Shown here: positions 6,237 through 30,344 of the stretch, piece by piece | How the letters are laid out: the number at the start of each line of letters is the position of its first letter | How positions within the stretch are numbered: position 1 is the stretch's first letter | IMG/VR virus record: IMGVR_UViG_3300030104_004599 | Coordinates: 1 to 30,859 of that record | Source: a virus | Reading direction: 5' to 3' (one strand) | DNA length: 30,859 bases | Translations under genes and position numbers: made by a program | The notes under the pieces: model-generated | Databases searched by the model: none | Told to the model about the DNA's origin: nothing | Seen by the model: the letters and a program-made list of their open reading frames with translations, nothing else

Positions 6237-6494
6237 ATGGCTAAATACAAAGGAAGGTCAGTTAGACTTGGAAAGCCAAGAAGGATAACAAAAGGTAGAC
6301 CTGGCTATGGTAGAAAAAAGTTTGAAGTTTTTGTAAAGTCAGGAAGCAAAGTAAAAAGAGTTGCTTTCGGAGACCCTAACATGAAGATTAAAAAATCACA
6401 ACCAGGCAGAAGAAAATCATTCAGAGCAAGGCACAGATGTGCTACTGCTAAAGATAGAACAACAGCAAGATATTGGTCTTGCAAAATGTGGTAA
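6237..6494 (+). CDS. Basic virus protein with GDPNM...SFRARH...ARYWSC motif
   Basis: This is an 85-residue, strongly basic protein. The second half has the pattern VKRVAFGDPNMKIKK, then RRKSFRARHRCATAKDRTTARYWSCKMW. I recognise this as a module widespread in marine phages and large DNA viruses, usually left uncharacterised or found fused to other proteins. Two Cys in the conserved end (RHRC, YWSC) may bind a metal or form a disulfide. It is the second of four consecutive very basic genes inside the structural operon, which suggests a virion-associated nucleic-acid-binding role. That role is inference from charge and context. Confidence 0.65.
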   Translation: MAKYKGRSVRLGKPRRITKGRPGYGRKKFEVFVKSGSKVKRVAFGDPNMKIKKSQPGRRKSFRARHRCATAKDRTTARYWSCKMW

Positions 6495-6498
6495 GATT

Positions 6499-6690
6499 AT
6501 GGCAAGAAGAAAAAAAAGAAGAAAAAGTACAGTTAATAAAGCAGGTAATTATACAAAACCTACTATGCGTAAAAGATTATTCCAAAGAATAAAAGCGGGT
6601 AGTAAAGGTGGACCAAGAGGTGTCTGGTCTGCTCGTAAAGCGCAGATGTTAGCAAGAATGTATAAAGCAAGAGGTGGAGGATATAAATAA
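6499..6690 (+). CDS. Basic virus protein, 'WSARKAQ...GGGY' module
   Basis: I chose the ATG at 6499, four bases after the upstream stop, rather than an in-frame upstream start that would overlap the previous gene. The 63-residue product begins MARRKKRRKS. It then carries the recognisable pattern YTKP.MRKRL...IKAGSKGGPRGVWSARKAQMLARMYKARGGGY. This module is known to me from giant viruses and marine phages (DUF5872/DUF6321-type proteins of unknown function), where it often continues directly into the KSQ.SL..W module that is here the next gene. The stop overlaps that gene's ATG by one base (TAATG). Confidence 0.65.
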   Translation: MARRKKRRKSTVNKAGNYTKPTMRKRLFQRIKAGSKGGPRGVWSARKAQMLARMYKARGGGYK

Positions 6691-6935
6691 TGGCTTTGAA
6701 AAAATCACAAAAGTCTCTTAAAAAATGGACATCTCAAAAATGGGGCTATGTCTCTAAAGGTGATAAAAAGAAACCTAAATCTAAACGTGGTAGATACTTG
6801 CCTAAATCTGTAAGAGATAGTTTAACACCATCTCAAAAAGCCTATGAAAACAGAAAAAAAAGACGTGCTACAAAAGCAGGTAAAACCAGAGCAAGATATT
6901 CAAAGTCTGTGAGAAGAAAGATGAGAGGTAAATAA
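6690..6935 (+). CDS. Basic virus protein, 'KSQKSLKKWTSQKW...RYLP' module
   Basis: This 81-residue, very basic protein opens with ALKKSQKSLKKWTSQKW. It is followed by the RGRYLPKSVRDSLTPSQKAYENRKKRRATKAGK pattern (with 6-8 aromatic/helix landmarks) typical of uncharacterised basic proteins in marine phages and nucleocytoplasmic large DNA viruses. It is coupled by TAATG overlaps both to the preceding WSARKAQ-module gene and to the following connector gene. The charge and the location between exterior proteins and head-tail joining genes point to a virion or DNA-packaging role, unproven. Confidence 0.65.
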   Translation: MALKKSQKSLKKWTSQKWGYVSKGDKKKPKSKRGRYLPKSVRDSLTPSQKAYENRKKRRATKAGKTRARYSKSVRRKMRGK

Positions 6936-13200: not shown

Positions 13201-13968
13201 GACGCGTTAGATGATAGCGAGGTTGCTGCAAAAGTAGAAAAACTACAAAAAATGAAAGAACTTGAGTTAGAGTATGCAGAATTTGAAAAAGATAATGAAG
13301 AACAAAAAGCAGCAGTAAGAGGTGAGGCTTTACAAATGGCTCAAGAAACTTTTTCAATGTTTATGTCTGCTCGTAAAGAAAGTTTACAACAAGACATAAA
13401 TAATGAGTTAGAAGCACTAAAAAACTCACACGCTTATAGAGCAGCATCTGACAAAAGAAAACAAAAAATGGAAGATGATGTTAGAAAGAAATTTGCTAAA
13501 GAGCAATTAAAACTATTCCGTTTTGAACAATTGTCTAAATTAGCAGGTATAGCAATGAATACAGGTGAGGCTATTATGAGCGCTGTCAAAGCATTTCCTC
13601 TTACAGGTGGTATGCCTTTTACTGCAATTATAGGTGCTATGGGCGCGGCTCAAGCAGGTATGGTTTTATCACAAAAACCTCCTAAATTTCAAGTTGGTGG
13701 TTTAGTTGGTGGATTGCCTCATTCTGCTGGAGGAACATTAATAGAGGCTGAAAGAGGTGAGTTTGTTATGAACAGACAAGCAACAGAGGCTATCGGTTTA
13801 GAACAATTGAATCGTATGAACAGAAGAGGAAGTATTGGTAATAATATAAATATACACATGACAGGAAATGTATTAAGTGATGACTTTGTTGCTGATGAAT
13901 TTATACCTAAATTAGAGGAAAGGATAAGGGTGTTATCTGATGGTACAATATCAGATACTTTTGCATAA
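10270..13968 (+). CDS. Tape measure protein
   Basis: This 1232-residue protein is the typical tail-length ruler. It has an N-terminal helical region with small-residue-rich hydrophobic stretches (LRSQMLLASFGAGLFSASI, about residues 80-98). A conserved-looking tape-measure block follows around residues 110-260 (VVFGSSFDSM...VASFNNTTAEHAMRDFNSALVGNHETVRKFGI), and more hydrophobic segments lie at about 280-370. A very long Glu/Lys/Gln-rich coiled coil runs from about 390 to 1110. The C-terminus carries the common GGLVGGLPHSAGGTLIEAERGEFVMNR element. At about 0.15 nm per residue the tail would be near 185 nm. It overlaps the chaperone frame upstream and the hub gene downstream (TAATG). Confidence 0.93.
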   Translation: MANKISIEFVAKGNKGVTRAVASLNRQVQELAAANAMLTKGTGNLTVAQKRLVGSLLDTQRSLRNTAKTAGTTGATFSVLRSQMLLASFGAGLFSASILRIANMAGDAAEQTSKAEVVFGSSFDSMTSWADGFGDTVNRSKFQLLGFAAAVQDILVPMGMMRTEAAELSKEIVQTAVDVASFNNTTAEHAMRDFNSALVGNHETVRKFGIVISEARMKQVALDKGIIKAGENLTDQQKILARLAIIQKDSTDAMGDAERTADSYANVMQGLAAQFEETAIVIGQFLMPVIKAFAEVATLILKVLERPTGLLIFTAVLVQLTKNLVIARMTMFGFMRILVRVRQTARLAGLSLKGLGVAFFALEAAFMLYQSIFPEKETEDAIDRAKKLEESIKKVEEAAKKATLAEVKKNIEDFTKITDDGALELDRYKNALDELQKKVDGYITTEVDAIIGVSPQTMAVLAELSRAGETTNIYKRAIESLENVIGPLDEKQKENLATLQQWQKTYDTAVGSTEAFSKAQVKLDKELQKLDQEVKRNAKLLNNESVQGFDAANQAMTRFGLTLENLKIENSDVEQSIHNLIAALDDKQIQNATLALQNQINLFGDLSTAEKTIITLQNKGVALDKEQINTINKLGNEYDELKRSKDAANDIKKAEKTILLLKAQLAAGGKLSELQKFDAELQANLAAGTNKLNILEIQQLREKAAEQDNLNKKLQEQADLKAKDQAEADRKESGAEGLDAQMSANKEITFEIMKQLMNQNLSGKQLEDNIRIELRRKELERQNLDLSAEKIQQIIDEEEKLKKVEQAVTDRVKAEQDAKTEADRRLANLEKEQIQYGKNMLSLQAQSTILEEQLFFGEELSAGEKFRIEMQHTANSLSAQQIEDQAELLDLIEQQTEELRNQELLKQVDVLEQDLKDIRNPQATPEQQFGGDLMAGLPMFASGTDSAFGNFLENSKKAFQDFANQNMADRKTLQAEIDALDDSEVAAKVEKLQKMKELELEYAEFEKDNEEQKAAVRGEALQMAQETFSMFMSARKESLQQDINNELEALKNSHAYRAASDKRKQKMEDDVRKKFAKEQLKLFRFEQLSKLAGIAMNTGEAIMSAVKAFPLTGGMPFTAIIGAMGAAQAGMVLSQKPPKFQVGGLVGGLPHSAGGTLIEAERGEFVMNRQATEAIGLEQLNRMNRRGSIGNNINIHMTGNVLSDDFVADEFIPKLEERIRVLSDGTISDTFA

Positions 13969-16900
13969 TGATAGAATTACACAATAAATTTAAATTAAAT
14001 TTAGAAACAAATATTACAAGTGTATCTTCTTTTATCAACATATTTCCAGATGTAAAACCAGAAGAATACCAAGATGTATATAATTTTATAATATCAACAT
14101 CTGAAACATCAAACACTCCGATTGCACAATTTTTAGTAGATAAATATGGCTCAAAAGAAAACTACATGAAAGCCATACACAAGTATTCTTCCAAAGATAT
14201 GTCAATTAGATATGGTCCTTCAACTAAAACATATAGTTTTGACGCTTTACTTACAAAACATCCCAAAGTAAGAAACTCTTTGGATATGAAAACTAAATTG
14301 TCAAAAGTATCAAATTTATCACTTGGTCTATACACACAAAGAAATGGTTATAAAAAATTAGAAGGTATTGAAAAATGTTACAACTCCGCAGTCGCTGTAT
14401 ATTATAGAGCAGAAGGTTGCAATAATATAACACAATGCGCTTTAGTTTTTGTAGGTGGAATATCTGAAATAAAACAAAATAAAGATAGTATGACATTAGC
14501 ATGCAATCATGTTTCAAATATATATAATGACATAGAACTACCTACTAACGATATACCTTACCAAGAAGTTTTGCCAGATAAATACAAACAAAAACCTTAT
14601 CCAATGGTTTATGGTGAAGTAGATGGCGCACATGCTTCTTTATCTAAAATTGATTTAGATAGCCAACAAGAATACAAGCATATAGTTTTTGATAATCCTA
14701 ACGCTAACTGTGAAGGGTTTATAGACACAGATATGCCTCAAGCACAACCAAGTAATACAATTGATGTTTGTTATGACACAGATAAATCTCAAATGTATGT
14801 AGCAGATGGTCAAAATTTATGTACAATTTTAAGAAGAAATCATTTTTGGTTTTGGGGCGACCCTAATGCTTATGATTATACAGACATTCAAAATGGTTAT
14901 AGTTGGAGATATCATTTTACAGACCAATATACATATGGGACACCTAATGGAATTAGAGCATACAGTTTTGTGGGTGAAAATCCAAGAAGAGTAAATCCTA
15001 TCAAAAATAATGCTGTAGTGGTACAATTTAAAGACACGTTTGATGGTATAACAATGAATAACCATGAAGAAGGCGATAATGTGCCTAATGGATTTGATAT
15101 TAGTTACGCAAATAGTGGTCAGCAAGACGATGATTTGCTTGGTAATGTTACTAATATTACGGGTGATGAAGATTCGGGTGTGTATTGGGTTAATAATTGT
15201 GATTTACAGAATGCTAACGAATTTTTCAATAAGGGTGATTATAGAAATAGAAACGCATTTTTAAAATTTAGATTCTGGACAACTTTTACAGACATGTCAC
15301 CAACACAAAATTACCCTAACGGTAATGATGCCATAGAAACTTTTAGAGGTATGAGGTGTCAATTTTTAAGTAAAGCGAGCAGTATAAACTCATATAGACA
15401 CTTTTTTGCTTTACATTTTAAAAGTAGATTGAAAGTAAGTCAGTATAAAGCAACTATTAGGACAAATGGTGTTGCTGAATCGGAATTAGATTTACTATCT
15501 GCTTGGACCCCGCCAGATGGAAATAATGCAAGTATGTTTTCATACCCTTTTGGTGCGGCTACAACAGGAATGTATTGGTTAGCAGGAACATTCCAAATGC
15601 CTCAAACAGCAGATTTTGATGGAACAATACCCCAATTTTATCCAGCGTTAGAACAATTTGGAGTGCCGATAGTTTGTGCAACAAGACATTTTCCTGTTAG
15701 ATATAGAGGATATGTAGATAATTATGGAGACGCAAGCGTTAATGAGGGTTTAGGAACAAGTCAAAATATGGGTGGACTTTTAAATTCTCCTGTCACAGAA
15801 TCTGGACAAGTTTTATTTGATACATGGAATATAAATAGTGATGATATAAATAGAAACAATAATAATTACGAATTTAATAGTGATAATTTTTATCTACAAA
15901 ACAGAAAGCCTTATGAAAGCAATGCCAGACATATATATGATTGGTGGACAGCGCATAGTTGGAAAAATACAGATTATCCGTATATGCCATGGTGGTCACC
16001 TGTTTATAATAAACGGTCAAAAGATTTAGCAGAACATGATTTAAGGTCAGGCGATGCTGGTGTTGGAAGTATTATAAATGATGGACTATCTTACAAACCA
16101 AGAACTTATTCTTATGCTGATTCTACAGACACAACTTTAATGATGTTGCCACCGCAACTATTTAATTTAGGTTGGAGTTCTAACATAAATAATAACCCTA
16201 CAAATGAGTTAGTATACCACGCATATAATGAATTAGAAATATATGATGTTTATGCAGATAGAATATATATGAAAGAAGATTTCTTGGAATCTGATTTTTT
16301 TGCAAAAGTTAGAGGAAGAAGAGGTTATACAGAAATAAATGGTCCTTTATCAAATACTGCTGTACATAAACCTAATGAAATTATTTACCATATATTATCA
16401 GATGAATTAAAATTTGGCAAAAAGATTATAATAGATGATGATGCTTTTCAAAACGCATCACAACAGAACATTAAAATAAATACCGCTTTTTCAATAAATC
16501 AAAAAACACCAACAAAAAAGATTTTAGAAAATATAACAAAAGAATCAAAAATCTATCTTAAAAATAATACAGGCGGAACTATTACTATAGATTCTATGAA
16601 AGAGCATTATAGTGATGAGGATGTAGATTTAACAATCCTTTCAGATGATGTTGTAAAGTATAAATTTAGCAACACAAAATTAAGTGATATCAAAAATCAA
16701 GTTAAGATTAACTTTAATAAGAAATATGCTGGCAACATTTTTGAAAACACTTCAGGTTTTTACACAGACCCTGACACAGGTGAAGATTTATACAGTATAT
16801 TTATTGACGGAATATTACAAAGAAGCACCTTTTTTAATGGTTATCAAGGTGAAATATTTAACTATGATGAATTTAGTTATCAAATGTACAACAATTTAAA

Positions 16901-18590
16901 CACAAGTGCATTAAGTGAATTAAATGATGAAAATAAAATTTACAGTTTAGATTACTATAACTTGAAAAACACAGAAACAAAATTAGAAGTAGAATGTGAA
17001 ACTATCAGAGATTTTATAAGCGCAAGTGAATTACAAAAGTATTTAATTTTATGGAATTGTAATCAGCATTTAATGGTAGATTTAGACTTACCTTTAAGAT
17101 ATGCAGGTTTAGAGGTTGGAGATATAGTAAATTTTGACAAACTTATTAAAAATCAAACAGCATTTAATTTTGATTACACAAAAAGATATGTCAAAAATGG
17201 TCAAGTAATATATCCTTACTTTATAGTAACAAAAACTGATAAAAGTGTTAATAATATAAAAGTAACTTTGACCCAACTACATAGACTTGATTGGGGTTTG
17301 GATGGTCATTCTATGAATATAGATAGCGATAATACATATAATTCAAATAAAGAGCCTGCGCTTTATGGGCAAGATGACCCATTAACAAATGTTGAATTTA
17401 CACCTTCTGCATTATATTTTGGAGAATATGAAGGAGAAATACATACCATATATTTTTACAATGCTTTTGCAGAAATAAGTAATATAGATATATCATCAAT
17501 AGATTTTATTGAGGAACATCAATTAGTTTCTGACCCTACAACAGGTTTTCATTCAATAAGTTATAGAAGTAACACTACTAATACAGATGAAGAAACAAAA
17601 ACAGGAAATATAATTGTTAATTTTGAAGGCTCAACACAAGATTTTGTTTTTAATGTTTCTCAAGAACCTGATAGTCACTTATTTGCTAACAATGTAACAT
17701 TTTACTTTGTTAATAATCAAGAATTAATAGACAACACTATAAATGAATTATATTCTTTAGGAGAAACAAGTATCGTTCAAAATAATAACGATTTAATACA
17801 AAGAGTAGACATAAAAAATAATGTTGGTGGTGATGATAGTTTGTTTGATATATTAACTATACAATGTGCAGACAATCAATTTTTTGATTTAAGGAATGCT
17901 TGGAGTGGTTTAGGTTCTGGAGATAATGAAGATGCTTTTACTGACAATTTAAGAATGGCAGATGGTGGAAGTTACTTAAATGGTGGTAGTAATTTAGGTA
18001 ATGGTTTCCCACCTGATTGGTGTTTTATACATTATATTACAGAACCAGAAACAATTAGTTATCCAGATGGTGATATAACATATCAATATATAGAGGTTGT
18101 TGTTTTTAATAGAGATATATATGATGAAGTTGGCGAACAAGGTACTGTTCTTGTAAATAGCGGTAATTATGAAACAGAATATTATAATTTAGGTGAATAC
18201 GAAAGTGATGACTATGCAGGTGTTAGAAGTGCGCATTTATTTTTTGAAGCATCTTTAAACCCAGACACACCAAATCAAGGTCCAACAAATGGTATTGCTC
18301 TTGATATTGTTCAAGAAGGTATGCCTTTTGTTCCTCCTATTATAGAGGGCGGTCAAGGTGATGGTGATGTAAATGGAGATGGAGTGTGCAATATTCTTGA
18401 TGTTGTAGGAATGATAAATGCTATTTTGGTTAATATGACAGATGACGCTTTTTTTCACGCTGATATAAATGATGATGGTATAGTAAATATACAAGATGTC
18501 ATAATATTAATAAGCCACATTCTTGAAGCACCTTTAGGTCAAGGAAGTTTGATACCAGACAATTATTATGTAACAGAAGAGGAAGTTTAA
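13968..18590 (+). CDS. Central tail hub / tip protein with BACON-like and dockerin modules
   Basis: This 1540-residue protein follows the tape measure directly (TAATG overlap), the place of the tail hub. Residues 1 to about 1120 look like the hub itself. They contain DKYKQKPYPMVYGEVDG near residue 203 and end in the pattern AGLEVGDIVNFDKLI ... YPYFIVTKTDKSVNNIKVTLTQLHRLD, as in hub proteins that close with a CxxLHxLD-type strand. Residues about 1141-1234 (VEFTPSALYFGEYEGE ... DFVFNVSQEPD) match the layout of BACON-type Ig domains. A second Ig-like stretch ends ALDIVQEGMPF near 1450. Residues 1467-1520 are two dockerin-type calcium loops, DVNGDGVCNILD and DINDDGIVNIQD, each with its helix. The Ig and dockerin modules probably contact the host surface or other tip proteins. 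Confidence 0.75.
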   Translation: MIELHNKFKLNLETNITSVSSFINIFPDVKPEEYQDVYNFIISTSETSNTPIAQFLVDKYGSKENYMKAIHKYSSKDMSIRYGPSTKTYSFDALLTKHPKVRNSLDMKTKLSKVSNLSLGLYTQRNGYKKLEGIEKCYNSAVAVYYRAEGCNNITQCALVFVGGISEIKQNKDSMTLACNHVSNIYNDIELPTNDIPYQEVLPDKYKQKPYPMVYGEVDGAHASLSKIDLDSQQEYKHIVFDNPNANCEGFIDTDMPQAQPSNTIDVCYDTDKSQMYVADGQNLCTILRRNHFWFWGDPNAYDYTDIQNGYSWRYHFTDQYTYGTPNGIRAYSFVGENPRRVNPIKNNAVVVQFKDTFDGITMNNHEEGDNVPNGFDISYANSGQQDDDLLGNVTNITGDEDSGVYWVNNCDLQNANEFFNKGDYRNRNAFLKFRFWTTFTDMSPTQNYPNGNDAIETFRGMRCQFLSKASSINSYRHFFALHFKSRLKVSQYKATIRTNGVAESELDLLSAWTPPDGNNASMFSYPFGAATTGMYWLAGTFQMPQTADFDGTIPQFYPALEQFGVPIVCATRHFPVRYRGYVDNYGDASVNEGLGTSQNMGGLLNSPVTESGQVLFDTWNINSDDINRNNNNYEFNSDNFYLQNRKPYESNARHIYDWWTAHSWKNTDYPYMPWWSPVYNKRSKDLAEHDLRSGDAGVGSIINDGLSYKPRTYSYADSTDTTLMMLPPQLFNLGWSSNINNNPTNELVYHAYNELEIYDVYADRIYMKEDFLESDFFAKVRGRRGYTEINGPLSNTAVHKPNEIIYHILSDELKFGKKIIIDDDAFQNASQQNIKINTAFSINQKTPTKKILENITKESKIYLKNNTGGTITIDSMKEHYSDEDVDLTILSDDVVKYKFSNTKLSDIKNQVKINFNKKYAGNIFENTSGFYTDPDTGEDLYSIFIDGILQRSTFFNGYQGEIFNYDEFSYQMYNNLNTSALSELNDENKIYSLDYYNLKNTETKLEVECETIRDFISASELQKYLILWNCNQHLMVDLDLPLRYAGLEVGDIVNFDKLIKNQTAFNFDYTKRYVKNGQVIYPYFIVTKTDKSVNNIKVTLTQLHRLDWGLDGHSMNIDSDNTYNSNKEPALYGQDDPLTNVEFTPSALYFGEYEGEIHTIYFYNAFAEISNIDISSIDFIEEHQLVSDPTTGFHSISYRSNTTNTDEETKTGNIIVNFEGSTQDFVFNVSQEPDSHLFANNVTFYFVNNQELIDNTINELYSLGETSIVQNNNDLIQRVDIKNNVGGDDSLFDILTIQCADNQFFDLRNAWSGLGSGDNEDAFTDNLRMADGGSYLNGGSNLGNGFPPDWCFIHYITEPETISYPDGDITYQYIEVVVFNRDIYDEVGEQGTVLVNSGNYETEYYNLGEYESDDYAGVRSAHLFFEASLNPDTPNQGPTNGIALDIVQEGMPFVPPIIEGGQGDGDVNGDGVCNILDVVGMINAILVNMTDDAFFHADINDDGIVNIQDVIILISHILEAPLGQGSLIPDNYYVTEEEV

Positions 18591-18591
18591 T

Positions 18592-19272
18592 ATGTTTGAA
18601 GACAAAAATCATGCTAATAAAGTATCTTTACAATATTCAAATGGTGAGGTAATTATTTTTAATGACGGAGATATTGCAGGTATTCAAATTCAATACGAAT
18701 GTACAGGTAAAATAAATTTAAATCCGCCTGATAATTGGCTTTACTCTTCAAATGATAATATAATAATAATGGCATCTATTAATGGTGATGGTAATATAGA
18801 TGATGGTAGTGTAATTTTTAATTATGATGGAGATTTAAATATAATACAAGCCACTATTGCTACTTGGGACAAAAAAGCGTTTACTATAAAACCACATACT
18901 ACAACAGATGATAGCAATTTTATAAAAGGAACAATTTATCAAACAACTGATAAGATAAGTAATGCAGGCGGTGTTACAACAATAGCAAATTCAAACAAAA
19001 AAATATCAGAAACTACAAATGATACATTTATTAAGAAAATAACAATAGAAGAAGTTAAATTAGATAACACAGAAGAAATAAGACAAAAATTTTTAGAAGA
19101 ATCAGGATTTAATGTGGATGGTTATGTTGGTAAAAGAAAGGTGCGAAGACAAAAAAGTACAAGACAAAAAATGTTTTCACAACCTAAAACAGCAAAACAA
19201 GGCGCAATACCAAGACCACAAATAAGCGTAAATACAGGAGGTTCTGGTGGAGGAACAGGAGGTGGATATTAA
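18592..19272 (+). CDS. Tail tip-associated protein with Gly-rich end, unknown family
   Basis: This is a 226-residue protein starting two bases after the hub stop with an AGAGGAAGTT ribosome site. It has an N-terminal beta region with short acidic loops (INGDGNIDDGSVIFNYDGD) that might bind calcium. A helical Lys-rich segment follows (ITIEEVKLDNTEEIRQKFLEESGFNVDG), then a basic linker (KRKVRRQKSTRQK) and a flexible GGSGGGTGGGY tail. The disordered, Gly-rich end is typical of proteins that pack into a larger assembly. The stop overlaps the next gene by one base. I assign it to the tail tip by position only. Confidence 0.55.
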   Translation: MFEDKNHANKVSLQYSNGEVIIFNDGDIAGIQIQYECTGKINLNPPDNWLYSSNDNIIIMASINGDGNIDDGSVIFNYDGDLNIIQATIATWDKKAFTIKPHTTTDDSNFIKGTIYQTTDKISNAGGVTTIANSNKKISETTNDTFIKKITIEEVKLDNTEEIRQKFLEESGFNVDGYVGKRKVRRQKSTRQKMFSQPKTAKQGAIPRPQISVNTGGSGGGTGGGY

Positions 19273-20822
19273 TGGGTTACAATAGATGTGCAAAACCAAG
19301 ATTTTATATAGACGTAAATAATTTAGTAAGAGCAAAAGGTGGTATATACGAAACACAAGCAAGAGTAATACCCGATAATGGCATACCTTGGATTCCTGCT
19401 TCTGAAATGTTTCACAATAATGGAACAAGGTTATGGAAAACTGATGGTACAGAAGGATGGCAACATCCAGGCGCTAACACAACTATTGATTTTACCGATT
19501 CATATAATTATAATGGTCAAGATTATGATTATACATTTGCTAATGAGTATTGGCAAACCGATATGTATATGAGATATGAACAATATTATCCTTTAGGCAC
19601 AATAAATTATTTTGCTTTTTTAGGACACAACTTTGGTCCGTCACAATGTAAAGTAGAGCCTTTTATATGTAGAAGCGTTTCTACAGGAATAACAGAAGAT
19701 TCAGTTCCACGATTAAATTTGCAAGATGTTTTGGATGACCCAACTGATGATAGTCATTATTATGGTAGTGCTGATTTTAATGACGGAAGATTTGAATTTT
19801 TTCGTTTTATAACCACAGATGATTTTGGTGGTGGAGGTACAGACAATGGGGATGGAGATACAGAAGAAACTTATTATTGTAGTTTAGATTCTAATATACT
19901 TACACAAGAAGAGTGTGAACAGGCAGGAGGAGATTGGATTATAAACGACCAAAGAGATTTTGATGACGACTATCTTCAATTTACTTCTACAGATATAGGT
20001 TGGAATGTTATAAGGTTTAATGACAACAATAAATCTGACGATACATTTAGACAAGTATTTAATGCTTTAGATGGCACTAATTTAGGGCAATATAATACAT
20101 TGGGATTGAGAATTTATCAATATGATGGAGAAGCAACATTTGTAAGTAATAATGCAGACTATAAAAGAGTGCCTCACTTAAATGCTTTTAGTGCTGGATG
20201 GACATATGTTTTAGAACACGCACCTGATTTAGAAATAGAAATGACATGGGAATTTGATGGTATAAGCACAAAAACAGGTTTAGGCGGTCAAAATTTAACG
20301 AATATTGATTATAGCGGTCCTGCAGGTTGGCAATTTTTAAACAGAAACTATGATGCTGATAATGTTATAAATGAAGGCTTTACTATTGACGATGCAACAG
20401 CATGGCATCACCATTCAAGTGGCGCATCACAAGACTATGATGGTTTAGGTGGCAATCAAGGAAGAAGGGTATGGAATTTAAAATTCTCATATATGCACGA
20501 TAGAATAGATAATGTAAATGATGGTATTGGAAATCCTGTTGGTATGAACAATAGCGGTTTATTTAATGATAATTATCATAGAGAATCAAAAGTACATATG
20601 GAATGGTCTACAACAGGTGATGGTTTTATTGGTATAAACCAAAACTTTTTTAGTAGAGTTATAAATGGAACTATGGGTGGTAAACTACCATTTTTATTTC
20701 AGCCAGACATAGAGGATAATGATGAAATATTCTTGTGTGAATTTAAAGATAACGAAATAAGTTTTGAACAAGTAGCGCCAAATGTCTACAATTTTGATTT
20801 AACTATCCGTGAGGTGTGGTAG
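19272..20822 (+). CDS. Minor tail / tail tip protein with inserted Cys motif
   Basis: This 516-residue protein opens MGYNRCAKPRFYIDVNNLVRAKGGI. It closes with DNEISFEQVAPNVYNFDLTIREVW, a pattern seen at the end of many distal tail proteins (a Q..P..Y.F.L.IREVW strand). The middle is rich in aromatic residues, Asn and Asp, as in carbohydrate-binding beta domains. At about residues 198-222 a Gly/Asp-rich linker leads into YYCSLDSNILTQEECEQAGGDW, a small two-Cys module better known from secreted bacterial proteins. It is the last late gene. Its final 20 bases overlap the end of the opposite-strand gene. Confidence 0.6.
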   Translation: MGYNRCAKPRFYIDVNNLVRAKGGIYETQARVIPDNGIPWIPASEMFHNNGTRLWKTDGTEGWQHPGANTTIDFTDSYNYNGQDYDYTFANEYWQTDMYMRYEQYYPLGTINYFAFLGHNFGPSQCKVEPFICRSVSTGITEDSVPRLNLQDVLDDPTDDSHYYGSADFNDGRFEFFRFITTDDFGGGGTDNGDGDTEETYYCSLDSNILTQEECEQAGGDWIINDQRDFDDDYLQFTSTDIGWNVIRFNDNNKSDDTFRQVFNALDGTNLGQYNTLGLRIYQYDGEATFVSNNADYKRVPHLNAFSAGWTYVLEHAPDLEIEMTWEFDGISTKTGLGGQNLTNIDYSGPAGWQFLNRNYDADNVINEGFTIDDATAWHHHSSGASQDYDGLGGNQGRRVWNLKFSYMHDRIDNVNDGIGNPVGMNNSGLFNDNYHRESKVHMEWSTTGDGFIGINQNFFSRVINGTMGGKLPFLFQPDIEDNDEIFLCEFKDNEISFEQVAPNVYNFDLTIREVW

Positions 20823-26570: not shown

Positions 26571-26682
26571 TTATAAATAGTTATCCAAGTCGTCAGATTC
26601 GGCTCGTTTGTCAAAAGGATTGGGTTCTCTACTTCTTATAAGGGGTAGGGTAACCTCTATCCAATATCTCAAATTCTCTCAT
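26571..26682 (-). pseudogene. Possible micro-gene broken by a -1 shift
   Basis: An ATG at 26682, overlapping the end of the cyclotransferase gene, reads MREFEILDRGYPTPYKK and stops at 26629. In the -1 frame the sequence continues as LIRSREPNPFDKRAESDDLDNYL and stops at 26571-26573. Joined, the two parts make a coherent hydrophilic peptide of just under 40 residues with a natural-looking acidic end. The break may be a sequencing or natural frameshift near the CCCC run. No ribosome site is visible, so the whole may also be chance. Confidence 0.3.
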
Positions 26683-27079
26683 ATGTCAAAAGGTTTTTAG
26701 TATTTAAATAAACATTATTATAATCATAATTATAAGGCATATCTTTCAATATATAAATCCAGCACTTGATTCTTTGTCCATTTTTTGTTGGTTTATTACT
26801 TACCATAAAAAAATCGTCCGAAACTCTTTCATAAAAAGTTCCTTCTCCTTCCAGAATATCTAATCTATCCAGAATGCGGTCATTTATGTGATATATTTCT
26901 CCAGATATTTTATAACCATTATCAGAATTATATAAGACAGCAGGGAAGCCACCTAAATTTATCATGTTAAATTTTTCTATGCTGTTAGCCGTTCCAACAT
27001 ATTCAGCGTCCTGTAAAACGCTATGATTGTGAAATCCTTTTTTGAGTGTCCCGTATACAAATACTTTATTTAGTTCCAT
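26669..27079 (-). CDS. Gamma-glutamylcyclotransferase-like (AIG2/GGCT) protein
   Basis: This is a 136-residue protein. VFVYGTLKKGFHNH (residues 6-19) is the YGTL(K/R).G substrate-binding loop of the GGCT fold. GEIYHINDRILDRLDILEGEGTFYER carries the LD.LEG segment with the catalytic-type Glu, followed by FYER. GGCT-like enzymes open gamma-glutamyl amides to release 5-oxoproline and related products. In amidoligase gene neighbourhoods they are thought to cleave or trim gamma-glutamyl linkages. It lies on the same strand as the amidoligase/amidotransferase operon but 660 bases away and beyond a terminator. Its Arg codons are mostly AGA, like the rest of the phage. A TATAAT at 27094-27099 and palindrome copy C precede it. 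Confidence 0.85.
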   Translation of the reverse strand: MELNKVFVYGTLKKGFHNHSVLQDAEYVGTANSIEKFNMINLGGFPAVLYNSDNGYKISGEIYHINDRILDRLDILEGEGTFYERVSDDFFMVSNKPTKNGQRIKCWIYILKDMPYNYDYNNVYLNTKNLLTYERI

Positions 27080-27691: not shown

Positions 27692-27722
27692 TAAAAAAAA
27701 AGCGCTTAAAAAAGCGCTTTTT
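27692..27722 (-). terminator. Strong intrinsic terminator of the amidoligase operon (bidirectional in form)
   Basis: GCGCTT (27702-27707) pairs with AAGCGC (27712-27717) around an AAAA loop. The stem extends by five A-T pairs. On the minus strand the hairpin is followed by nine T, the classical intrinsic terminator. It lies 20 bases past the last gene of the leftward amidoligase operon. Confidence 0.8.
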
Positions 27723-27743: not shown

Positions 27744-27929
27744 TTAATACATCATGAGAAAAAACCATACAAACACACACAAACAAATTGTATAGATGCA
27801 TAGACCATATATGATATCAATCATTTTTTTTCTTTTCCTTTCATTGGTTTTTTGTTGGAGAAATTGTACATCATTTTGGATTGAAACACCGCCATTGATG
27901 CGCTTGTAAATATGTACACATTTTTTCAT
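27744..27929 (-). CDS. 61-residue single-span membrane protein of the amidoligase operon
   Basis: I chose the ATG at 27929, which overlaps the stop of the amidotransferase gene (TAATG) and has AAAGGA five bases upstream. A longer frame would overlap that gene. The N-terminal 35 residues are soluble and basic (MKKCVHIYKRINGG ... NERKRKK). Residues 36-60 (MIDIIYGLCIYTICLCVFVWFFLMM) are a membrane span with three Cys, ending at the C-terminus. It may anchor the operon's enzymes or substrate to the membrane. The last 26 codons, with their own Met and an AAAGGA site, could also be made alone. The family is unknown. Confidence 0.55.
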   Translation of the reverse strand: MKKCVHIYKRINGGVSIQNDVQFLQQKTNERKRKKMIDIIYGLCIYTICLCVFVWFFLMMY

Positions 27930-28702
27930 TATATTCCTTTCATTTGATGATTTAAAACATTTAAGCACACACCACACACCCATGATGATGTTTTGTGATG
28001 GTAGTGTTGTTTTGCGCACACTTGTTCACATTTTTCACATGATTTTGTAAAAATGCGCGTTTGTTTTGTCACTATCTTTTTTGGCTTTGGTTGTGTCCAT
28101 TGAATATTGCATGATGATTGCCATGCGGATTGTGAACCATATCCGCCAAAATCATATGTGTTTGGCTTGTATGAACTATTTGAAAACCATGTACCATTTG
28201 ACCAATGTCCAAGATTTTCATTTACAATCTTGAATTGATTATCACTATTTAAGAAAATCAATTTTGAATGACCAATAAAATCACTCATCATTGTAATGAT
28301 TGATTTATTGTGAATGAATCTTGTTGGCAAATGTTTCAACACATCATCATTGAAAACACGTGTATCACTACGTTTCTTGCAATTTTCAACGCGGTTAATG
28401 ATTCCATTGTGACAAAATACAAGATTTTCATTTACCATGAATGGATGCACATTGTACAAAGTTTTTGCGCCATGTGTGCCTATTCTAAAATGAATCATGA
28501 TATTTGATTTGCTACCATGCACATTGTGTATGTGATTGTAAGCATTCAACAAACTATCTTCATCCATGTATTTTTTTACAATGATTTTATTGTTGTTTAC
28601 GTAAGCAATCCCGCATCCATCATCATTGTTATTGAATGCGGTTTTTAATTGCTCATTAGTTAGTTTTTTTGCATTTGGTTTTTGAATCAAGGCTAAACAC
28701 AT
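27929..28702 (-). CDS. Class II glutamine amidotransferase (Ntn hydrolase) with zinc-ribbon tail
   Basis: This is a 257-residue protein. Cys2 (MCLAL) is the N-terminal nucleophile expected after Met removal. HFRIGTHG (71-78) and FCHNGII (96-102) are the substrate and oxyanion motifs of class II amidotransferases, and SDTRVF (112-117) is a further family landmark. The WSNGTWFSNSSY segment near 167-178 closes the domain, as in phage members. After a linker, CEKCEQVC ... WVCGVC (Cys222, 225, 243, 246) forms a zinc-ribbon-like tail. Such enzymes release ammonia from glutamine or hydrolyse related amides. The gene starts one base after the amidoligase stop. Many Arg codons here are CGN, unlike the rest of the phage. 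Confidence 0.85.
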   Translation of the reverse strand: MCLALIQKPNAKKLTNEQLKTAFNNNDDGCGIAYVNNNKIIVKKYMDEDSLLNAYNHIHNVHGSKSNIMIHFRIGTHGAKTLYNVHPFMVNENLVFCHNGIINRVENCKKRSDTRVFNDDVLKHLPTRFIHNKSIITMMSDFIGHSKLIFLNSDNQFKIVNENLGHWSNGTWFSNSSYKPNTYDFGGYGSQSAWQSSCNIQWTQPKPKKIVTKQTRIFTKSCEKCEQVCAKQHYHHKTSSWVCGVCLNVLNHQMKGI

Positions 28703-28703
28703 A

Positions 28704-30344
28704 TTATTTTTGTCCTTTCATTATATCACTTAACGTGATTTTATTTTTGTTAAAAAAGCGGTTTAAGTTTGGGTATGCTTGAAAATTACTTTTCACATGC
28801 CCAATGTAATTATTTAGTTTACAATCTTGAATTGCATTGTGTTGGCAAAATTCTTTTAATGAAAAAAGAAATTCAACATTTTTCAAAATCTCATTTGATT
28901 TTAAATTGCCCTTAAAAATTCTACATTCAATTGTTGCGGAATTGTTAAAGTTTAATGCGGAATATCTATTGCCAAACATAGCGCCAACATATTTTGTGTA
29001 TATTGATGAATCACAAATTTGATTGTTGATTGTAGCATTTACAAAATTATCTAAATGACGTAAATCAATACGCGCCCAACTTCGTGTATTACGTTGCGCA
29101 ATAAATTCAGTAAATGATTTATTTTTGTACATCATTTTCATAAATTTGTAGAATGTTAATGAACTCATAAAATTTCTACTCATATGAATATGGATGCCAC
29201 AATCATTGTCATTGAATGATTGCAATTGATTTCTAAATTGTGCAAACATATTATCCCAATCAATATTTTTAATTGCATTGTATGTGATTGGATGTGATAC
29301 AAATTCAACACCGCCATTTGAAGACAATGAACTATCATTTTTGGCATAAAACAAATTACGTCCGCCAAACTCGGTAGTTTCACACACCTTTGAAATGATT
29401 TTACTCATGTCTTTTTGATGGTCACGTTTTACACTTGTTTCAATCTCAATTCCAAAATATGAATTTTTGTGCATATGTGGTGACACATACCCGCGCACAC
29501 CGCTTGTTGATTTTCTAAAAAATCGTGGTGTTGGTTTGTATGAATATGATTGCACATGATATTTGATATCATTTTGCGCACATTTTGAGCATTTGTCATT
29601 TGGTATGAATTGAACTTTACAATATGTGTTGCAATGCTCACATTTAATCCAATCATATGCGCTCATAAATTGACCTAAACCAATTGGCATTTTGAATGTC
29701 TCATCATTAATTGGATTATCATGGTAATATTTGGCAAATCGTGTATATCCGTTGCAATAGATTAATTTCTTTTCACCATTTGTGATGTTTTCACAAATAG
29801 AATTTTTCATCATCTTTTTGGCATCCTCAATGCAAAATCTATTGTTTGCATAATCATCATTTGGGACACAATATCTTGACCATGCAACAAAATCAGATTT
29901 AAATTGTTCTATTGGCACATATTCACGCGTTTTGTGTGCATGTACACCAACACCCATTGTGAGTATGTCACCACGAATCATTGAATTACATTCAAGGTGA
30001 TTGAAATCAACTAATTTATTTTTTAGCATTTTAATCATGTCAAAATTGTGTGTTGTTTTTTGCATCATTGGCAATGCGCCATTGTCACGATTTATGAAAC
30101 CATGAATCCCAAATGTATACAAATGTTTAATGATTAATTTTTTTTGATATTCATTTTGGAATTGTCTTTCTAAATCACCCGCAAATGATTCACACGCGGA
30201 CAATGACAATTCAACATTTAACCGTTGATGTTGTGTTGATGTCAATTCAAATTGTATTATGTCATCATGTATTAATTGGATATTTATTACACCATCAATG
30301 ATGGTGGTGTTTAGTTTATATCTATTCAATGTTGTTGTATTCAT
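28704..30344 (-). CDS. Amidoligase (COOH-NH2 ligase) family enzyme
   Basis: This is a 546-residue protein with an AAAGGAATTAAAC ribosome site. The C-terminal half is the amidoligase domain, related in fold to glutamine synthetase and gamma-glutamylcysteine ligase. YFGIEIETSV (about 294-303) holds the metal-binding Glu pair, and NDSSLSSNGGVEFVSHP (about 333-349) is the D.S....G.E.VS.P motif. CGIHIHMSRN (about 380-390) is the H.H motif, and SATIECRIFKG (about 466-476) the catalytic E.R.F..... motif. The N-terminal half is unknown except for a zinc-ribbon-like CEHCNTYC ... CSKC at about 234-258. These enzymes use ATP to join a carboxyl to an amine (peptide or amide bond). Paired with the amidotransferase and the membrane protein, it probably modifies a protein or wall peptide. 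Confidence 0.85.
   Translation of the reverse strand: MNTTTLNRYKLNTTIIDGVINIQLIHDDIIQFELTSTQHQRLNVELSLSACESFAGDLERQFQNEYQKKLIIKHLYTFGIHGFINRDNGALPMMQKTTHNFDMIKMLKNKLVDFNHLECNSMIRGDILTMGVGVHAHKTREYVPIEQFKSDFVAWSRYCVPNDDYANNRFCIEDAKKMMKNSICENITNGEKKLIYCNGYTRFAKYYHDNPINDETFKMPIGLGQFMSAYDWIKCEHCNTYCKVQFIPNDKCSKCAQNDIKYHVQSYSYKPTPRFFRKSTSGVRGYVSPHMHKNSYFGIEIETSVKRDHQKDMSKIISKVCETTEFGGRNLFYAKNDSSLSSNGGVEFVSHPITYNAIKNIDWDNMFAQFRNQLQSFNDNDCGIHIHMSRNFMSSLTFYKFMKMMYKNKSFTEFIAQRNTRSWARIDLRHLDNFVNATINNQICDSSIYTKYVGAMFGNRYSALNFNNSATIECRIFKGNLKSNEILKNVEFLFSLKEFCQHNAIQDCKLNNYIGHVKSNFQAYPNLNRFFNKNKITLSDIMKGQK

Follow-up and report, generated by a model that had tools for sequence, protein, structure and literature searches.

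The viral record IMGVR_UViG_3300030104_004599 from IMG/VR (positions 1 to 30,859, the whole stretch being called the window in the following; G+C 31.7%) carries three leftward genes at its right end, which encode a ligase, a class II glutamine amidotransferase (GATase) and a 61-residue micro-protein, in this order, and which run into a hairpin terminator (Table 1). Ligase and GATase are separated by a single base at position 28703, the GATase stop and the micro-protein start have one base in common within the sequence TAATG, and an AAAGGA-type ribosome-binding site is present before each of the three genes. The open reading frame (ORF) coordinates bear out the tight spacing described in a first-pass annotation of this DNA, and the strong terminator named there is real as well, with 8 terminator-like sites in the window against 1.6 expected and a minus-strand hairpin that folds at -17.2 kcal/mol and is accompanied by a T tract. 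The same annotation had given the operon its own promoter region, which found no support: the window holds 31 promoter-like sites against 32.9 expected, no such site was predicted immediately ahead of the ligase on its own strand, and a sigma-70 promoter belonging to the operon is indistinguishable from chance. No defence-system assignment was obtained with PADLOC.

Table 1. Features of the operon and its surroundings in the window.
Feature	Position	Strand	Length	Basis
Amidoligase_2 (GS/GCS-fold) ligase	28704..30344	-	546 aa	PF12224, AlphaFold, Foldseek, invariant residues
Class II (Ntn, Cys2) GATase	27929..28702	-	257 aa	PF13230, GlmS likeness, invariant residues
Micro-protein with one transmembrane segment	27744..27929	-	61 aa	hydropathy 2.38, homologue in the collinear phage L091
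Hairpin terminator closing the operon	27697..27722	.		terminator prediction and fold
GGACT/AIG2-like gamma-glutamyl(amine) cyclotransferase (GGCT)	26669..27079	-	136 aa	PF06094

The ligase belongs to the family Amidoligase_2 (PF12224; 30.5 bits, cut-off 22), which is also matched by 49 of the 50 aligned ligase relatives. It is composed of an N-terminal region (about residues 1-225), a zinc ribbon (235-255, with the cysteines C235/C238/C252/C255) and a catalytic domain (about 262-540). In a single-chain AlphaFold model calculated from an alignment of 50 phage relatives the catalytic domain mostly reaches pLDDT values of 80-98 but falls lower around residues 441-460, and no confident structure was obtained for the N-terminal ~225 residues (222 in the model). 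The top Foldseek matches of the model were YbdK, glutamine synthetase (GS), PafA and gamma-glutamylmethylamide synthetase (GmaS) with E values from 1.5e-4 to 3e-3, and Dop was matched as well; all five are members of the GS/GCS fold family, which places the ligase in this fold. The TM-scores are low because the N-terminal third is without a resolved model, and no solved structure is related to the ligase in sequence. Twelve columns are invariant in 50 sequences (G298, E300, E302, D337, E347, G383, H385, H387, R418, T471, E473 and R475) and they include the conserved Glu, His and Arg residues of the active site, namely E300, E302, E347, H385, H387, R418, E473 and R475. The amidoligase motifs GIEIET, GGVEFVSHP, GIHIHMS and ATIECR, which had been listed as intact, are indeed present, and structure prediction, proposed at the same time as a check, returned a catalytic domain in which the amidoligase/GS fold is present together with the active site. 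From sequence and model the protein is predicted to be a GS/GCS-like COOH-NH2 ligase that forms amides in an ATP-dependent manner.

The second enzyme matches PF13230 (26.3 bits, cut-off 23) and gave a single-chain AlphaFold model with a pLDDT of 86.7. It resembles the GlmS glutaminase by sequence and by structure (Foldseek E 6e-7), and this domain match identifies the Ntn-hydrolase fold. Residues M1, C2, R73, H86, N99, G100 and D113 are invariant in 39 GATase sequences, so that the features of class II enzymes are all found, with the Cys2 nucleophile after Met1, the Asn-Gly pair and the Arg and Asp residues for glutamine binding; the annotated motifs (Cys2, HFRIGTHG, FCHNG and SDTR) are accordingly in place. 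A zinc ribbon with C222/C225/C243/C246 follows at the C-terminus (222-246), and the zinc-ribbon extensions noticed earlier on both enzymes are real. A search of bacterial genomes with the GATase led to only five distant homologues (24-31% identity) in MAGs of Bacilli, Clostridia and Verrucomicrobia, and because they are so few and distant we did not infer a host.

Related genes are frequent in phages. By tblastn, 24 phage records were found to contain the ligase and 34 the GATase; among them are Marvin-like mycobacteriophages, MEP401/402, an environmental podovirus and an Acinetobacter phage. In IMG/VR a search for close relatives with the single ligase or GATase sequence found nothing and alignments were required, after which hundreds of relatives were obtained. 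The ligase is followed by the GATase within 300 bases at 132 of the 134 loci with recognisable copies of both, always in the same order, and of 80 loci retrieved with the ligase alone 77 have the two genes adjacent, while in the remaining three the genes overlap, are truncated by the contig end or stand 1.7 kb apart (one case each), which means that the GATase lies directly downstream in 78 of the 79 assessable loci. At the GATase loci without a match to the ligase HMM, reading by eye showed a large ORF upstream that carries an EFRIF-like motif in 20 of 24 cases. The pairing is thus obligate and its gene order constant. In 103 of 125 ligases at least two CxxC motifs stand ahead of the catalytic motif, and in 145 of 174 GATases at least two come after the GATase domain; the zinc ribbons are therefore a trait of the whole family. 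A ligase relative at locus L189 (3987-5822) has a long array of CxxC zinc motifs ahead of its catalytic domain; downstream of it come a GATase, two small genes and, as judged by eye, a Toprim/DnaB-like primase-helicase.

The pair itself is already known and has been annotated in Marvin, MEP401/402 and LUZ24-like phages. Marvin gp105-gp106 and their counterparts in Marvin-like mycobacteriophages show the same succession of ligase and class II GATase on one strand with zinc-binding cysteines in both proteins, but they are only 20-28% identical to ours, and the neighbouring stretch examined contains neither a micro-protein homologue nor a GGCT. In the Methylophilales phages MEP401 and MEP402 a ligase of 546 and 548 residues, respectively, overlaps the GATase, whereas its N-terminal region is not detectably related and the micro-protein and the GGCT are without a match in the stretch examined. 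A close relative is IMGVR_UViG_3300030012_001393 (L091), in which almost every gene lies in the order of the window and all four genes including the micro-protein are present, although identities differ between them: 39% for the ligase, 59-63% for the GATase, 43% for the micro-protein and 77% for the GGCT, with many neighbouring genes at 56-79%. The ligase N-terminal third (residues 1-225) is only about 26% identical between these two phages, and among the loci examined nothing detectably related to it occurs outside the lineage. Such divergence hints, if no more, at a variable, target-facing part of the enzyme and makes this region a candidate for specificity.

The micro-protein has a basic N-terminus and one C-terminal transmembrane (TM) segment (about residues 37-58), a topology that would suit a tail anchor. 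Its homologue in L091 also has 61 residues and shares the position, the TAATG overlap and a strong terminator behind it. A chance ORF can be rejected on the grounds of this conservation, and the gene and its coupling, both put forward in the first-pass annotation, stand; the emphasis on its cysteines is weakened, as only C51 of the four is kept in the sole homologue. A neighbourhood search, suggested there as a test, was answered in two ways, with the micro-protein kept beside the pair in this one related phage and no homologue found in any other locus examined. In the third collinear phage, IMGVR_3300030117_004994, ligase, GATase and GGCT are present with other small genes between them and without the micro-protein, which the pair can therefore do without. 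No enrichment of small TM ORFs is seen after the GATase (7 of 149, versus 47 of 686 after other ORFs), which argues against the micro-protein belonging to the pair in general; it is a lineage-specific accessory of close relatives. It is in this restricted sense that the membrane protein is a real addition to the known pair. A match to DUF2721 (E 0.0045), which at 17.3 bits stays below the cut-off of 28.3, was taken as noise. Two further loci, L050 and L088, encode a different small TM protein that overlaps the end of the GATase and has a common C-terminal (S/T)IEELEV(L/M) motif; both are unrelated to the micro-protein of the window.

The GGCT gene lies 664 bp beyond the operon and past its terminator and is a separate unit. 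The protein matches PF06094 with an E value of 2.2e-24, its nearest solved relatives are chains of AIG2-like domain-containing protein 1 (e.g. 2kl2 and 3jub), and the motif Y9-G-T-L12 and E77 align with the solved AIG2-like proteins, the glutamate being presumably catalytic. It is 77% and 70% identical in two related phages and keeps its place in three collinear phages, and most ligase-GATase pairs are without a GGCT in the sequence covered at their loci.

The first-pass annotation had regarded the GGCT as a possible new third enzyme, a novelty that does not hold since phage cassettes with such a gene have been published. A peptidoglycan modification cassette of amidoligases, ATP-grasp, gamma-glutamyl cyclotransferase and glutamine amidotransferase has been listed for phiEco32, LUZ24, PaP3, tf and others (PMC5498523), the same gene types are reported for UFV-P2 (PMC3890496), and in RIO-1, PSA-HP1, phiEco32, LUZ24/PaP3/tf, PA11 and CW02 amidoligase, GATase and GGCT stand in an early or replication-side block (PMC5498523, PMC3890496). 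The window has these three genes close together as well. The published cassettes differ from it in a second amidoligase of the COOH-NH2 type and an ATP-grasp enzyme, neither of which was recognised in the 30.9-kb window fragment: an ATP-grasp match is absent among the window ORFs scanned, and PF14395 for the second ligase gave no match in four records, all of them fragments, nor in the control genomes. Conversely, the 61-residue membrane protein is absent from the other phages examined except the one close relative. The amidoligase-GATase pair has also been described for MEP401/402, where the genes are called AMGs, and for over 30 genomes from metagenomes (PMC10580990). Peptide tagging or wall editing, which the annotation inferred, is the standing published prediction: PMC10580990, PMC11318856 and PMC11253131 trace cell-wall modification and the exclusion of other phages back to Iyer et al. 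2009. In these papers as in PMC5498523 and PMC3890496 the wall role is a prediction, with no wall chemistry reported.

Taking the four genes together, we favour, with some reserve, a two-subunit, glutamine-dependent amide-forming enzyme that acts on a host peptide or protein, with the micro-protein as an anchor and the GGACT-like enzyme for clean-up. The GATase would hydrolyse glutamine by means of its nucleophile Cys2 and release ammonia, while the GS/GCS-fold ligase would activate a carboxylate with ATP and turn it into an amide with this ammonia; the carboxylate is probably located on a host peptide or protein, in a side chain or at the gamma position. The macromolecular substrate may be chosen by the zinc ribbons together with the variable N-terminal region of the ligase. 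In this small lineage the C-tail-anchored 61-residue protein might hold the pair at the inner membrane, and the GGACT-like enzyme could clear or limit gamma-glutamyl-amine products. The cell wall may be the target, and the benefit could lie in a change of the wall or surface, e.g. superinfection exclusion. Phage amidoligase/amidotransferase pairs are widespread, with over 130 adjacent pairs in the sampled loci, and the papers cited here give no experimentally shown substrate. The lineage described here offers a compact form with one ligase, one GATase, one membrane micro-protein and one cyclotransferase, which could be expressed as a whole to test the old wall-modification hypothesis, and the coupled membrane protein, if it is true that the enzymes bind it, would indicate the site of the reaction.

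Instead of the wall, the same pair might act on a host or phage protein or peptide in the cytosol, and the micro-protein would then have nothing to do with it and be, for instance, a membrane-acting or lysis-timing peptide that shares the operon by chance. The zinc-ribbon or LIM-like arrays before the catalytic domain in most relatives suit a macromolecular partner, the protein ligase PafA is within the fold family of the ligase, and the micro-protein is missing in nearly all relatives with no general surplus of small TM genes. Nevertheless, its length, TAATG coupling and position before the terminator are kept in a second phage, which favours a joint function there, and published opinion leans to the wall, so that we consider a cytosolic target rather unlikely. 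Still less probable to us is a small amidated metabolite or a modified nucleotide or base as the product, e.g. in DNA hypermodification or counter-defence, even with YbdK, GmaS and GlmS among the structural matches, related enzymes that make small molecules, and with primase/helicase genes often beside the pair, as the window ORFs scanned include no recognisable hypermodification gene and zinc-ribbon arrays would be unusual in a small-molecule ligase.

A pair of ligase and glutaminase able to amidate wall peptides is known from MurT/GatD of Staphylococcus aureus (PMC3267633). The likeness to the anchored amide-forming enzyme that we favour is the glutamine-dependent amidation; the folds are different, with a Mur-ligase fold and a class I-type GATase in MurT/GatD and a GS-type fold and a class II Ntn enzyme in the window. 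One could imagine the 61-residue tail-anchored protein as a dedicated adaptor that brings the amidoligase-amidotransferase complex to the inner membrane for amidation of lipid-linked wall precursors, a membrane-bound phage analogue of MurT/GatD, an idea that we regard as doubtful. Decayed or non-catalytic enzymes or a spurious micro-protein ORF, to which the low Pfam bit scores might point, are hardly credible and largely refuted by conservation, since every invariant residue is retained and all four proteins are conserved in one phage at 39-77% identity.

Two other regions of the window deserve mention. In the tail gene region a protein of 1540 residues (13968-18590, plus strand) has a type I dockerin repeat at its C-terminal end (PF00404, E 5.8e-8), an uncommon feature among phages, and the parts that have diverged most between the collinear relatives include the tail end of the module (13968-20822). 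Very basic small proteins of the virion block (6237-6935, plus strand; PHROG 7595 and 14910) are strongly conserved: they reach 83-98% identity between phages that share 30-48% in their tail proteins.
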